Under the pieces are notes generated by a model. It had not been told where the DNA came from. It searched no databases and was given only the letters and a program-made list of their open reading frames with translations. Below are positions 6,385-13,990 of a stretch of DNA of 30,690 nucleotides, in pieces (within the stretch, counting starts at the first letter, position 1; each line of letters begins with the position of its first letter). The DNA lies in the IMG/VR virus record IMGVR_UViG_3300046744_000287, positions 1 through 30,690 of that record; one strand, written 5' to 3'. This DNA comes from a virus. The position numbers and the translations under genes were made by a program.

Positions 6385-7314
6385 ATGGAAGACGAAGAAA
6401 TCATTGACCCAAGGCAACAGGCCATAAATGCAAAAAAAGAAAAACTCAAGGCTCTTTTACAAAAAAGAAAAAAGGCTACTGCAAATAGAGAAACTGCTTT
6501 ATCAGAAAGAGAAAAGGTTGCTCTAGAAAGAAAGGAACTTTTAAAAAAGAAAAGGGCTGAAAGAGAGCAAGAAATAGCAAACTTCAAGGCTAAAAGAAAT
6601 GCTGAAATTCAAGCAAAAAAAGACGAAAGACTTGCTGAAATTCAAAAAAAGAAAGATTTTGATGCAGAAGGTAAACAACTTGCTTCTGATTTTGATAAAG
6701 AAGAAGCGATTAGAAGAGCGGCAGCGATTCAGAAAAAAGCCGAAGATGATAATTATGACTGGAATTATATAGGTGGTGATGAAAATACCGCTAACAAAAG
6801 ACAGAGAACCGAAATTATTGAAGGTGAAAAAGAAGTAGAAAGAATAATTAAGGGGACTAAAGAAATCAATACATTTAAACCAACTGGTAATACAGATGAA
6901 GATGTATATAACGCAGACCCTAGTTTAAAAAAGAAGTACCCAACCTTAGAAAAGTTTAGGATTGCTGCACAAAAATATCGTGATGATCAAGTTAAAACTG
7001 TAGAGACAGAGCAAAAAGTCATTGAAAAAGTTCCTACTAGAGAAGAAAAGGTTATTACTCAAACTAGAGAGGATTGGATTAAGAAACAACATTGGGCTGA
7101 AGGGTTACCTAAAGGTTTAGTTTCTTCACTAGCACTTAGTATGAGAAAAAGAGGTAATGACATGACTCCTAAAGAATTATATGACATATTCAAATCACAA
7201 ACATCTGAAAAAGAATCTGCTGCATGGGCTAGAAAAAATGGATTTGGTTATCTATTAGGTGGTAGAGGTGGTAGAGGATCATCTACAACAAGTGGTAAAA
7301 CAAACTTTAATTAA
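6385..7314 (+). CDS. Highly charged coiled-coil protein
   Basis: This 309-residue protein is the largest of the operon. Residues 1-120 are a nearly continuous Glu/Lys/Arg helix (for example REQEIANFKAKRNAEIQAKK), which predicts a long coiled coil. A middle part, residues 125-225, contains NYDWNYIGGDENTANKRQRT and a DPSLKKKYPTLEKFRIAAQ segment. The C-terminus is Gly-rich (GGRGGRGSSTTSG). I recognise no enzyme motif. A virion or internal head protein is plausible from the neighbours. It shares one base with the next gene (TAATG). Confidence 0.8.
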   Translation: MEDEEIIDPRQQAINAKKEKLKALLQKRKKATANRETALSEREKVALERKELLKKKRAEREQEIANFKAKRNAEIQAKKDERLAEIQKKKDFDAEGKQLASDFDKEEAIRRAAAIQKKAEDDNYDWNYIGGDENTANKRQRTEIIEGEKEVERIIKGTKEINTFKPTGNTDEDVYNADPSLKKKYPTLEKFRIAAQKYRDDQVKTVETEQKVIEKVPTREEKVITQTREDWIKKQHWAEGLPKGLVSSLALSMRKRGNDMTPKELYDIFKSQTSEKESAAWARKNGFGYLLGGRGGRGSSTTSGKTNFN

Positions 7315-10614: not shown

Positions 10615-10691
10615 TGCCTGGTAGTTCAATTGGATAGAACAACAGACTTCTAATCTGTCGGTTGAGGGTTCGAATCCCTCCCAGGTAACCA
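10615..10691 (+). tRNA. tRNA-Arg (anticodon TCT)
   Basis: A full cloverleaf can be drawn. The acceptor TGCCTGG pairs with CCAGGTA (one G-U). The D arm is GTTC/GAAC. The anticodon stem ACAGA/TCTGT has loop CTTCTAA, so the anticodon is TCT, reading AGA. The T arm is GAGGG-TTCGAAT-CCCTC. The discriminator is A at 10688, and CCA at 10689-10691 is encoded in the DNA. AGA is the common Arg codon in this AT-rich phage, so the tRNA would support its own translation. Confidence 0.96.
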
Positions 10692-11237: not shown

Positions 11238-11516
11238 ATGACAAATTCAAACTATTTCACAGCCTTCAACAGATTCGATAGACAAACAACATTTAACCCA
11301 ATGATGATGTCTTTCATCCAAACTACGATCAACAAAATAAGTAACGGAGGCTTCAGAGCAAGTGACCTGGTAAATTCTCTTTACGGTATCTATGACGGTT
11401 ACTACTACACAAATTTAAGATCAGAGGCCAATCGTCTATACTCACACGATATTATGATCCTTCGAGATCTACATGCAATTGCAGACACCTTGGACTCGAT
11501 AATTGCGAGAGCATAA
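11238..11516 (+). CDS. Unknown small protein before hammerhead 1
   Basis: This 92-residue protein begins MTNSNYFTAFNRFDRQTTFN and is mostly helical with no known motif. The start follows AATTAATTTAAACTAAAATAAAA, the shared leader type. Its TAA stop (11514-11516) is directly adjacent to the first base of hammerhead ribozyme 1, so the ribozyme forms the 3' end of this message after cleavage. Confidence 0.75.
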   Translation: MTNSNYFTAFNRFDRQTTFNPMMMSFIQTTINKISNGGFRASDLVNSLYGIYDGYYYTNLRSEANRLYSHDIMILRDLHAIADTLDSIIARA

Positions 11517-11570
11517 GATTACTGATGAGCCTGTGAGATCCAGGCGAAACATCCTTCGGGATGTCTAATC
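11517..11570 (+). ncRNA. Type I hammerhead ribozyme 1
   Basis: All core parts are present. CTGATGA is at 11522-11528. Stem II is GCCTG/CAGGC (11529-11533 with 11541-11545), then GAAA (11546-11549). Stem III is CATCC-TTCG-GGATG (11550-11563) with a UUCG loop. The cleavage triplet GTC ends at 11565. Stem I GATTA (11517-11521) pairs perfectly with TAATC (11566-11570) and is the open stem, which makes it type I. Cleavage after 11565 would leave a 29-base leader before the ATG at 11595. Confidence 0.95.
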
Positions 11571-11594: not shown

Positions 11595-11849
11595 ATGTTA
11601 ACATTAAGAAAATTCTACCAGGAAAATTACCCAACAGATGATATGGGATCTAAAATCAACTTAACAACTTTTGTATGCTTAATGGATTGCTTACATAGAG
11701 GAGGTAACGTGTACATCATCATTGGTGTAGAAGACAGTCTAATTAGAGAGAGATTATTTCAACACCTTGCCGACATGTTAGGCACCAACTACAACTATGT
11801 TTACAATTTATGGATGCAGGTAGATAAAGAATTATACCAGGCAATCTGA
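11595..11849 (+). CDS. Unknown small protein overlapping hammerhead 2
   Basis: This 84-residue protein starts MLTLRKFYQENYPTDDMGSK. It contains no recognised motif; the middle, GGNVYIIIGVEDSLIRERLF, looks like an alpha/beta segment. Its last codons Gln-Ala-Ile and stop lie inside hammerhead 2: stem I supplies the final codons and the TGA stop at 11847-11849 is part of the CTGATGA core. The leader is the AATTTAAACTAAAA type, left as a 29-base 5' end by cleavage of hammerhead 1. Confidence 0.75.
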   Translation: MLTLRKFYQENYPTDDMGSKINLTTFVCLMDCLHRGGNVYIIIGVEDSLIRERLFQHLADMLGTNYNYVYNLWMQVDKELYQAI

Positions 11850-11889
11850 TGAGATCTTTATGATCGAAACGCTGCGAAGCGTCATTGTC
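11840..11889 (+). ncRNA. Type I hammerhead ribozyme 2, stop codon in the core
   Basis: The core CTGATGA is at 11846-11852. Stem II is GATC/GATC (11853-11856 with 11862-11865), then GAAA (11866-11869). Stem III is CGCT-GCGA-AGCG (11870-11881) with a GNRA loop. GTC ends at 11883. Stem I GGCAAT (11840-11845) pairs with ATTGTC (11884-11889), six pairs with one G-U. Its stem II differs from the other three copies. Cleavage would leave 27 bases before the ATG at 11911. Confidence 0.94.
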
Positions 11890-12077: not shown

Positions 12078-12221
12078 ATGTTAAACAAAATTCAATCAAT
12101 CGTAATCAATAGCCTTTTAGGATCTTTATTCACACTATGGGCACTAACATTTACAATGCTAGTCTTTCACCTGGTAACAGAAGGTGTAGATCCTAACGCA
12201 AGTTTTGGATACCTGGGATAA
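12078..12221 (+). CDS. 47-residue membrane protein before hammerhead 3
   Basis: The frame begins MLNKIQSIVINSLLGSLFTL and has a hydrophobic helix through WALTFTMLVFHLV. The tail is TEGVDPNASFGYLG. The TAA stop (12219-12221) touches the first base of hammerhead 3, as in the gene before hammerhead 1. The leader AATCTAAACTGAAAATC is of the common type. Confidence 0.65.
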   Translation: MLNKIQSIVINSLLGSLFTLWALTFTMLVFHLVTEGVDPNASFGYLG

Positions 12222-12275
12222 ACAAACTGATGAGCCTGTGAGATCCAGGCGAAACGCTCTGCGGAGCGTCTTTGT
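12222..12275 (+). ncRNA. Type I hammerhead ribozyme 3
   Basis: CTGATGA is at 12227-12233. Stem II GCCTG/CAGGC and its 7-base loop TGAGATC are identical to hammerhead 1, then GAAA (12251-12254). Stem III is CGCTC-TGCG-GAGCG (12255-12268) with a UNCG loop. GTC ends at 12270. Stem I ACAAA (12222-12226) pairs with TTTGT (12271-12275). Cleavage would leave 26 bases before the ATG at 12297. Confidence 0.95.
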
Positions 12276-12704: not shown

Positions 12705-12871
12705 TGGCTGTAATAACATCAAAAAAACTAGCAGAAATCCAGGATCAAATTATAGATCTTGGTTGGGAGGCCCAAAGAATGTCATCCTCAGGACTAGAAA
12801 CGTACAACAAACTTTGCAAAACATTTAAAATAGAACCAATAAAAATCACATATAATGAAGACTCGTTTTAA
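12704..12871 (+). CDS. Unknown 55-residue protein
   Basis: The frame MAVITSKKLAEIQDQIIDLG and on is a helical hairpin-like protein. Its start overlaps the preceding stop (TAATG) and its end overlaps the next gene by 17 bases. These couplings support coding. Function is unknown. Confidence 0.65.
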   Translation: MAVITSKKLAEIQDQIIDLGWEAQRMSSSGLETYNKLCKTFKIEPIKITYNEDSF

Positions 12872-13166
12872 TATTATCAGACAAAAAGTAACTACAAGAG
12901 GCGGAGGTATAGAGATCTGCCTAGAAAACCAAGGTTACCCAGGAGAAAAAATGACAGCCTACCAAAACTATTTAGGAGGCGGGATACTAGGAAGGATCGG
13001 AAACGATTGTACTATAACAGATTGGCAGCAGGATGATTTCCTGGTAGATCTTGCAGACAGTTTAGCAAAGATCATGCACAGGATGACAGCACCAATTTAT
13101 TTACAAGGTGAAGAACTAGAGCAAACATTTGAACAAAATCAATCTATGCCAATAAGTGCATACTAA
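12855..13166 (+). CDS. Unknown 103-residue protein
   Basis: It begins MKTRFNIIRQKVTTRGGGIE. The first half is beta-strand-rich and Gly-rich (YLGGGILGRIG), the second half helical (DDFLVDLADSLAKIMHRM). It overlaps the preceding frame by 17 bases. No family is recognised. Confidence 0.7.
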   Translation: MKTRFNIIRQKVTTRGGGIEICLENQGYPGEKMTAYQNYLGGGILGRIGNDCTITDWQQDDFLVDLADSLAKIMHRMTAPIYLQGEELEQTFEQNQSMPISAY

Positions 13167-13176
13167 AATTTAAACT

Positions 13177-13320
13177 ATGGCTATAACTAATGAAATATTC
13201 GAACACTACAGATCTCAACAGAGAAAGGTAGCAAAAGCAAAAGATCTTTTAAAAGATGAAGGGTATATAGTTTACCTGAAACCTACAAAAAAGAAAAAGC
13301 AAACTGATGAGCCTGTGTAA
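13177..13320 (+). CDS. 47-residue protein whose 3' end lies in hammerhead 4
   Basis: The frame MAITNEIFEHYRSQQRKVAK is followed by a basic region KPTKKKKQ and ends TDEPV. The final seven codons are read from stem I, the CTGATGA core and stem II of hammerhead 4; the TAA stop (13318-13320) sits in its loop II. The start is 10 bases after the preceding stop in AATTTAAACT context. Basic, helical, unknown. Confidence 0.65.
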   Translation: MAITNEIFEHYRSQQRKVAKAKDLLKDEGYIVYLKPTKKKKQTDEPV

Positions 13321-13384
13321 CTCAGGCGAAACGAGGGAGAAATGTTTTGAACGACTCCATGATTTTTGGCTCCCTCGTCTTTGT
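13299..13384 (+). ncRNA. Type I hammerhead ribozyme 4 with enlarged stem-loop III
   Basis: CTGATGA is at 13304-13310. Stem II is GCCTG/CAGGC (13311-13315 with 13323-13327) with loop TGTAACT, then GAAA (13328-13331). Stem III is eight perfect pairs, CGAGGGAG (13332-13339) with CTCCCTCG (13370-13377), and has a 30-base loop in place of a tetraloop. GTC ends at 13379. Stem I GCAAA (13299-13303) pairs with TTTGT (13380-13384), one G-U. Cleavage would leave 26 bases before the ATG at 13406. Confidence 0.93.
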
Positions 13385-13405
13385 ATAATAATAAAAACTG
13401 AAACA

Positions 13406-13990
13406 ATGAAAAAAAATTTTTGTGATTGCTGCGAGCAAGAGATAGATCAAGATCTAGATTTTTATCAATACGACCGTAACGATGAGATCCTATGTGAAGA
13501 ATGCTATTACGAGGCTTTTAATCGCTCTACTGTAATTCAGACATGGTCACCCCAAGATCAGGAGACAAAAAAATATTATTACCCGCATGAAATAGGGAAG
13601 GCATTCAATACATACTACGAAGAAATTTATTCTGATGATGATGAGGATCACCAACCTGTAAAAGATTGCAAATGGGTAAATTCAAATGCATGGAGAGGTT
13701 ATATGGACGTTGAATTCAAGGAAGGATGGAAAGATATAGAAAGCGGATGGACTACAGGATATTGGGAAGATGTTTCCTGGAAGCATAAGTTTAACGATTT
13801 AGTCCATGAAATTATAGGAGAAAACTCTGAATGCCCTGTAGCAGTATCAATCGTATCAAGTATAACAAGCAATGTATTTTCTCAGGCCACTTCTATTTTA
13901 GTAAGATCTAAAGACGAAGAAACATTTTTAGATTGGCTTGAAAACGAATATGGAATGACAAGAGAACAATTAAAAACATCACTAAAATAA
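13406..13990 (+). CDS. Zinc-ribbon acidic protein after hammerhead 4
   Basis: The product is 194 residues, starting MKKNFCDCCEQEIDQDLDF. I chose the ATG at 13406, since the longer frame from 13307 would read straight through hammerhead 4; the chosen start follows the leader AATAAAAACTGAAACA. Near the N-terminus are CDCC (residues 6-9) and CEEC (30-33), a likely zinc ribbon. The rest is acidic with a D/E run (YSDDDEDH). One GGTCACCCC motif (13545-13553) lies in the gene. Function is unknown. Confidence 0.8.
   Translation: MKKNFCDCCEQEIDQDLDFYQYDRNDEILCEECYYEAFNRSTVIQTWSPQDQETKKYYYPHEIGKAFNTYYEEIYSDDDEDHQPVKDCKWVNSNAWRGYMDVEFKEGWKDIESGWTTGYWEDVSWKHKFNDLVHEIIGENSECPVAVSIVSSITSNVFSQATSILVRSKDEETFLDWLENEYGMTREQLKTSLK

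Follow-up and report, generated by a model that had tools for sequence, protein, structure and literature searches.

In a phage genome, the genes that lie immediately upstream of hammerhead ribozymes end within the ribozymes' own nucleotides, and in one case the only stop codon of the gene is a TAA held in the loop of stem II. The genome is an IMG/VR virus record of 30,690 bases, and this whole stretch of DNA is referred to here as the window. The ribozyme in question, the fourth in the window, probably belongs to a set of message-cutting type I hammerheads that have merged with gene ends. Its loop, UGUAAYU, is best viewed, with moderate confidence, as a tolerated variant that is kept or recruited for genes that enter the ribozyme in frame 2 (of frames 0, 1 and 2). 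The dual use of phage hammerheads as gene ends is real by comparison of sequences, and more general than the original prediction made for this locus.

Hammerhead ribozymes in the window

The window harbors genes for typical phage functions, namely a portal protein, a terminase, a primase/helicase and an exonuclease, and nucleotide and protein searches of annotated phages returned no relatives. The hammerhead pattern CTGATGA..CGAAA is found in four copies, all on the + strand and between positions 11522 and 13331, against a chance expectation of 0.08 for the whole window. Downstream of the core, every copy has a hairpin that forms stem III, then GTC and the second (3') strand of stem I, an order that makes the topology type I. 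The first three copies are as follows, with signed positions counted from the core.

11517-11570, + strand: ribozyme 1, loop II TGAGATC; the upstream gene 11238-11516 stops with TAA at -8
11842-11887, + strand: ribozyme 2, short stem II with loop TTTAT; the upstream gene 11595-11849 stops at the core TGA (+1)
12222-12275, + strand: ribozyme 3, loop II TGAGATC; the upstream gene 12078-12221 stops with TAA at -8

The stem-loop II of copy 2 (GATC TTTAT GATC) differs from the others and is shorter. All four upstream genes are ended by ribozyme nucleotides: copies 1 and 3 supply the TAA at -8, copy 2 the core TGA, and copy 4 a TAA in loop II. A tRNA gene at 10615-10688 (Rfam RF00005, 70.4 bits) adjoins the block of ribozyme-bearing genes.

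Structure of ribozyme 4

The elements of ribozyme 4 and of the genes on either side of it are the following.

13177-13320, + strand: upstream gene, an open reading frame of 47 codons ending ..KKKKQTDEPV*, the last five codons being ribozyme sequence
13299-13303, + strand: stem I, 5' strand GCAAA, which pairs with 13380-13384; stem I covaries in five of five pairs in relatives
13304-13310, + strand: hammerhead core CTGATGA, with TGA at +1 and +4 in one frame; invariant in relatives save at the U7 position
13311-13327, + strand: stem-loop II, GCCTG-TGTAACT-CAGGC, its helix kept through compensatory changes
13318-13320, + strand: TAA stop in loop II, +14 from the core, which ends gene 13177-13320
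13331-13378, + strand: stem III, with a conserved apical insert of about 30 nt that is kept in related loci
13379-13380, + strand: predicted self-cleavage site GUC/UUUG, cut between 13379 and 13380 by the hammerhead NUH rule
13380-13384, + strand: stem I, 3' strand TTTGT, from the minimum-energy fold
13406-13990, + strand: downstream gene, 194 aa, within an open reading frame (13307-13990) that is open back to an ATG in the core at 13307

Stem II is formed by 13311-13315 and 13323-13327 and encloses loop II, TGTAACT, at 13316-13322; GAAA follows at 13328-13331 and GTC lies at 13377-13379. Ribozyme 4 has the sequence signature of type I hammerheads, namely the core CUGANGA ... GAAA and an NUH triplet directly 5' of the cleavage site. 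The minimum-energy fold yields the three hammerhead stems. In an alignment of 21 relatives that have the same length, pairing is present in 99.7% of the base-pair cells and both sides have changed in 12 of 16 pairs, a signal that is lost in a control in which the partners are shifted. Together, the fold and the covariation in all helices of the 21 relatives give the three-helix type I layout, in which stem I is the open helix and loops close stems II and III.

The apical insert of stem III, located within 13331-13378, reads ATGTTTTGAACGACTCCATGATTTTTGG. It is retained in all lineages of the locus, even where the upstream gene is a different one, and loosely in locus L010. No consensus inner structure was found for it, and it could be a binding site.

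The gene that ends in loop II

The last codons of gene 13177-13320 are CAA ACT GAT GAG CCT GTG TAA. Its sole stop is the TAA at 13318-13320, which occupies positions 3-5 of loop II and lies 59 nt 5' of the predicted cut. As the original prediction had proposed, the C-terminal TDEPV is ribozyme sequence, and the codon readout assigns it to stem I, the core, stem II and loop II. Homologues with 65-100% identity are present on IMG/VR contigs, and between the two closest lineages four codon changes are synonymous and one is nonsynonymous; a search for a Pfam domain in the product gave no match. An assembly error was considered as the source of the frame and ruled out, as two sequence-divergent lineages and several metagenomes concur.

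How a gene can end in a hammerhead depends on the frame in which it arrives. Frame 1 is closed by the core TGA at +1, and frame 0 is closed by the TGA at +12 that opens the usual loop II, TGARAYT. Frame 2 is open in the usual ribozyme; a TGTAA loop closes it with the TAA at +14, such that TGTAAYT loses the +12 TGA and gains the +14 TAA. The original prediction had the core CTGATGA closing two frames. It closes only one, because its TGAs at +1 and +4 share a frame, and the second closed frame of copies 1 and 3 is due to the loop II TGA at +12. The rest of its frame map holds: the third frame stays open through the TGAGATC loops of copies 1 and 3, and it is this frame that gene 13177-13320 uses to reach the TAA in TGTAACT. 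Where stem II is short, a frame-2 stop comes by default with loops like TAATT or TGATT.

Related loci

Related loci were collected by pattern scans of IMG/VR and by a search with the neighbouring gene 12855-13166, which gave at least 301 hammerheads from 429 loci. Among its relatives the ribozyme-4 locus exists in five states. In state A (the window, L036 and others) and state B (L026, L055 and L076) the gene enters in frame 2, loop II is TGTAACT or TGTAATT, and the stop is at +14. States C (L016, L078 and L085) and D (L048) have a gene of the same family that ends at the core TGA because it is one nucleotide longer in an A-rich run, and their loop II is TGTAATT. The same gene in L394 stops at the core TGA with a TGAGATT loop, and L025 and L062 have a different upstream gene that stops at -8, with TGAGAGT or TGAGATT. 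Downstream genes differ between the loci, and recombination between them is therefore likely. The chromosomal sample, 395 Bacteroidota and 398 Pseudomonadota genomes, held one match in all to the 7-nt-loop pattern, in the genome used as the centre, and chromosomes therefore gave no further test set.

The frame of the downstream gene (13307-13990) is open across the whole of ribozyme 4 to the core ATG, for 227 aa, because TGTAACT removes the +12 TGA; lineages B and D are likewise open. The 227-aa frame was considered as the true downstream gene and ruled out, as it is not kept in lineage C.

States A and B pair frame 2 with a loop stop. Loop and frame are not locked together, however, since states C and D keep TGTAATT without frame 2. 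The original prediction had named beforehand a case that would count against it, loci in which the frame is closed earlier and loop II still contains TAA, and L016, L048, L078 and L085, whose gene ends at the core TGA, are such a case. These four loci keep TGTAATT unused, and the loop is therefore not maintained solely for its stop.

They bear directly on the proposal that TGTAAYT replaced TGARAYT in loop II for the very reason that the gene needed a stop. In favour of it, TGAGATT and TGTAATT are two substitutions apart. Against it, TGTAATT persists where the gene has no use for it, TGTAAYT is also present in hammerheads far from any gene end, and the frame-1 relatives with TGTAATT point to, without proving, a TGTAA loop that predates the 1-nt frame change. 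Furthermore, the next frame-2 stop in ribozyme 4 is a TGA at +44, still 5' of the cut at +76, so the loop II stop is not essential in the window. An origin of the loop out of the need for a stop thus appears unlikely, even with the recurrence in a second phage described below.

An unrelated phage

Eight hammerheads are found in a 92.7-kb phage contig (3300041956_000313, here L222) that is unrelated to the window, and L365 is near-identical to it. The genes at six of them end at -10, -7, +1, +12, -8 and +1, and at the remaining two at +14. Two of the eight have the loop TGTAACT, and it is precisely these two, and no others, that receive a gene in frame 2, a match with a chance of 1 in 28. Both have the core CTGACGA, and the encoded proteins end in EPADEPV (..EPADEPV*). 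The two frame-2 genes show coding-like codon-position G+C and have no competing open reading frame, and one is preceded by a purine-rich leader. Beyond the two known contigs, no further relatives of the L222 frame-2 gene were found. The two TGTAACT ribozymes may be duplicates judging from their sequences; as they share stems I and II, the pair counts as one to two events.

The coincidence of TGTAACT with frame-2 entry in L222/L365 and, independently, in the window lineage speaks for an adaptive change of the loop and against chance. With the usual loop, the next frame-2 stop in L365/L222 would be at +50, past the cut at +46. If messages without a stop are to be avoided, L222 is thus predicted to depend on its loop II stop, and the window is not. 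The claim that loop II is adapted to end gene 13177-13320 is then partly supported: the association of loop and frame stands, across gene families and in L222/L365, and exclusive maintenance for the stop does not, given TGTAATT kept without stop use.

The usual loop also serves as a stop. A 41-aa membrane-like gene in L222 (4059-4184) enters in frame 0 and stops at the loop II TGA at +12, and the same TGA ends genes in L026 (at 7271), L212 and L259.

Gene ends and predicted cuts

An unambiguous upstream gene could be assigned to 241 ribozymes, representing 174 gene families, with genes called by length. Of the 9 families with frame-2 entry, 8 have a frame-2 stop within the core or stem-loop II, compared with 34 of 146 whose gene ended earlier and 7 of 21 entered in frame 1. 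The ninth frame-2 family is L384, where the gene at 6440 that seemed to read past the cut proved to be a miscalled frame; by codon-position G+C, the frame ending at the loop II TGA is the better supported one. In a subset chosen blind to the loop, the frame-2 stop is present in the core or stem-loop II in 4 of 4 frame-2 entries versus 15 of 63 families (p = 0.005). For ribozymes with a 7-nt loop that touch the gene, frame-2 entry accounts for 3 of 5 family counts with TGTAA versus 0 of 95 with the usual TGARA, the latter among the matches listed. After the L384 correction the association of TGTAA with frame 2 has p = 6e-5, or 0.001 when the two L222 ribozymes are taken as one, values to be read as those of post hoc tests on families that are not fully independent. 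Only two independent lineages carry the combination.

The gene stop precedes the predicted cut in 240 of the 241 ribozymes, the one departure being the miscalled frame of L384. Where the gene ended earlier, frame 2 closes before the cut in 53 of 146 ribozymes and is open past it in 93, and for this reason the rule does not follow trivially from the sequence; with the usual loop the corresponding figure is 28 of 96, among the matches listed.

These counts speak against pure chance, whereby a gene drifted into frame 2 next to a neutral TGTAAYT loop and merely found the next available stop there. Such a history has its attractions, in that TGTAAYT is natural elsewhere, a single-nucleotide indel in an A-rich run accounts for the change of frame, and the one complete frame-2 codon that fits in a 7-nt loop would be a stop at random in a few percent of cases. 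It sits poorly, however, with the association across families, with the repeat of the loop-frame match in an unrelated phage and with the consistent position of gene stops 5' of the cut, and we regard it as quite improbable.

The stop at -8 also draws on the ribozyme. All 21 aligned ribozymes have an A at -6, and so do 21 of the 22 families in which the gene stops far upstream; its conservation does not depend on a stop close by, and the AA in the -8 UAA is therefore part of the ribozyme. This nearly invariant adenosine lies beside stem I (positions -7/-6 before the core) and doubles as part of the -8 TAA. A separate family of near-identical hammerheads in Clostridia/Firmicutes MAG contigs (L298, L301 and L308) has an 8-nt loop, TGTAAATT, and no gene end close upstream.

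Relation to known hammerheads

Hammerhead arrays around prophage genes have been described by Perreault et al. 2011 (PMC3088659), with examples that cleave in vitro and in E. coli, and it has been proposed that they trim polycistronic phage RNA (PMC3088659). Those arrays share with the window the core, the three stems and the arrangement of arrays flanking single genes in phage DNA, and by analogy with the related phage arrays that cleave in vitro (PMC3088659), ribozyme 4 is predicted to self-cleave. Unlike those arrays as described, the window has stops spelled by ribozyme nucleotides and a loop II that varies with frame. In a term search, PMC3088659 gave no instance of stop codon, reading frame, coding region or overlap, and no paper was found on stop codons inside natural phage hammerheads in a literature search whose coverage is thin for subscription journals and preprints.

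The best Rfam match of copies 1 and 3 is RF03152 (RAGATH-1-hammerhead; 25.3 and 22.5 bits, below the gathering score of 56.3), with which they have the core and the stem I/III layout in common; its model differs from the window ribozymes in a short stem II and an upstream hairpin. RF00008 (Hammerhead_3) shares the core and a similar stem II loop (uGAaAu), but is of type III topology, whereas stem III is loop-closed in the window, and copies 1 and 3 score 20.1 and 18.4 bits against a gathering score of 48.5. None of the Rfam hammerhead families reached its gathering score over the window and the array, and copy 4 had no match to RF03152 or RF00008.

A proposed role for ribozymes that end genes

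The account that we favour is that type I hammerheads at the 3' ends of small genes would cut a polycistronic phage transcript into separate messages. A stop codon would then have to sit 5' of the cut just downstream of each gene, because cleavage would otherwise leave a message without a stop. The ribozymes would have merged with the gene ends, the stops being spelled by ribozyme nucleotides from a small set of options: the UAA at -8 that uses the conserved adenosines beside stem I, the core UGA, the UGA that opens the usual loop II, and the UAA of a UGUAA loop II. The usual ribozyme leaves frame 2 alone open, and UGUAAYU would be a naturally occurring, tolerated form of loop II that is retained or recruited where a gene arrives in that frame. 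The comparative data establish the anatomy, the covariation, the association of frame with loop and the precedence of the stop over the cut. Cleavage in vivo, message separation as its purpose and the avoidance of stop-less messages as the selective force are what we infer from them.

Translation might instead control cleavage, a ribosome terminating in loop II keeping the core open and delaying the cut until upstream translation slows, which would make the ribozyme an RNA switch. Given the established size of its footprint, a ribosome that terminates at 13318 would lie over both the core and the GAAA strand, and most of the surveyed gene ends lie within a ribosome footprint of the core. Genome compaction yields the same overlap, though, and stop positions range from -8 to +14, which renders such a switch rather doubtful. 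A broader scheme of frame-matched ribozyme-stop modules, with loop II selected to close the incoming frame, cut messages keeping their stop and the terminating ribosome gating self-cleavage, is likewise considered unlikely.

Hammerheads are numerous in phage and bacterial genomes, and their role is unproven. Genes that end before the predicted cut, with their stops in ribozyme nucleotides, are indirect comparative evidence that cutting takes place in real messages, and these ribozyme stops offer a simple way to test whether a catalytic RNA and a coding frame co-evolve.
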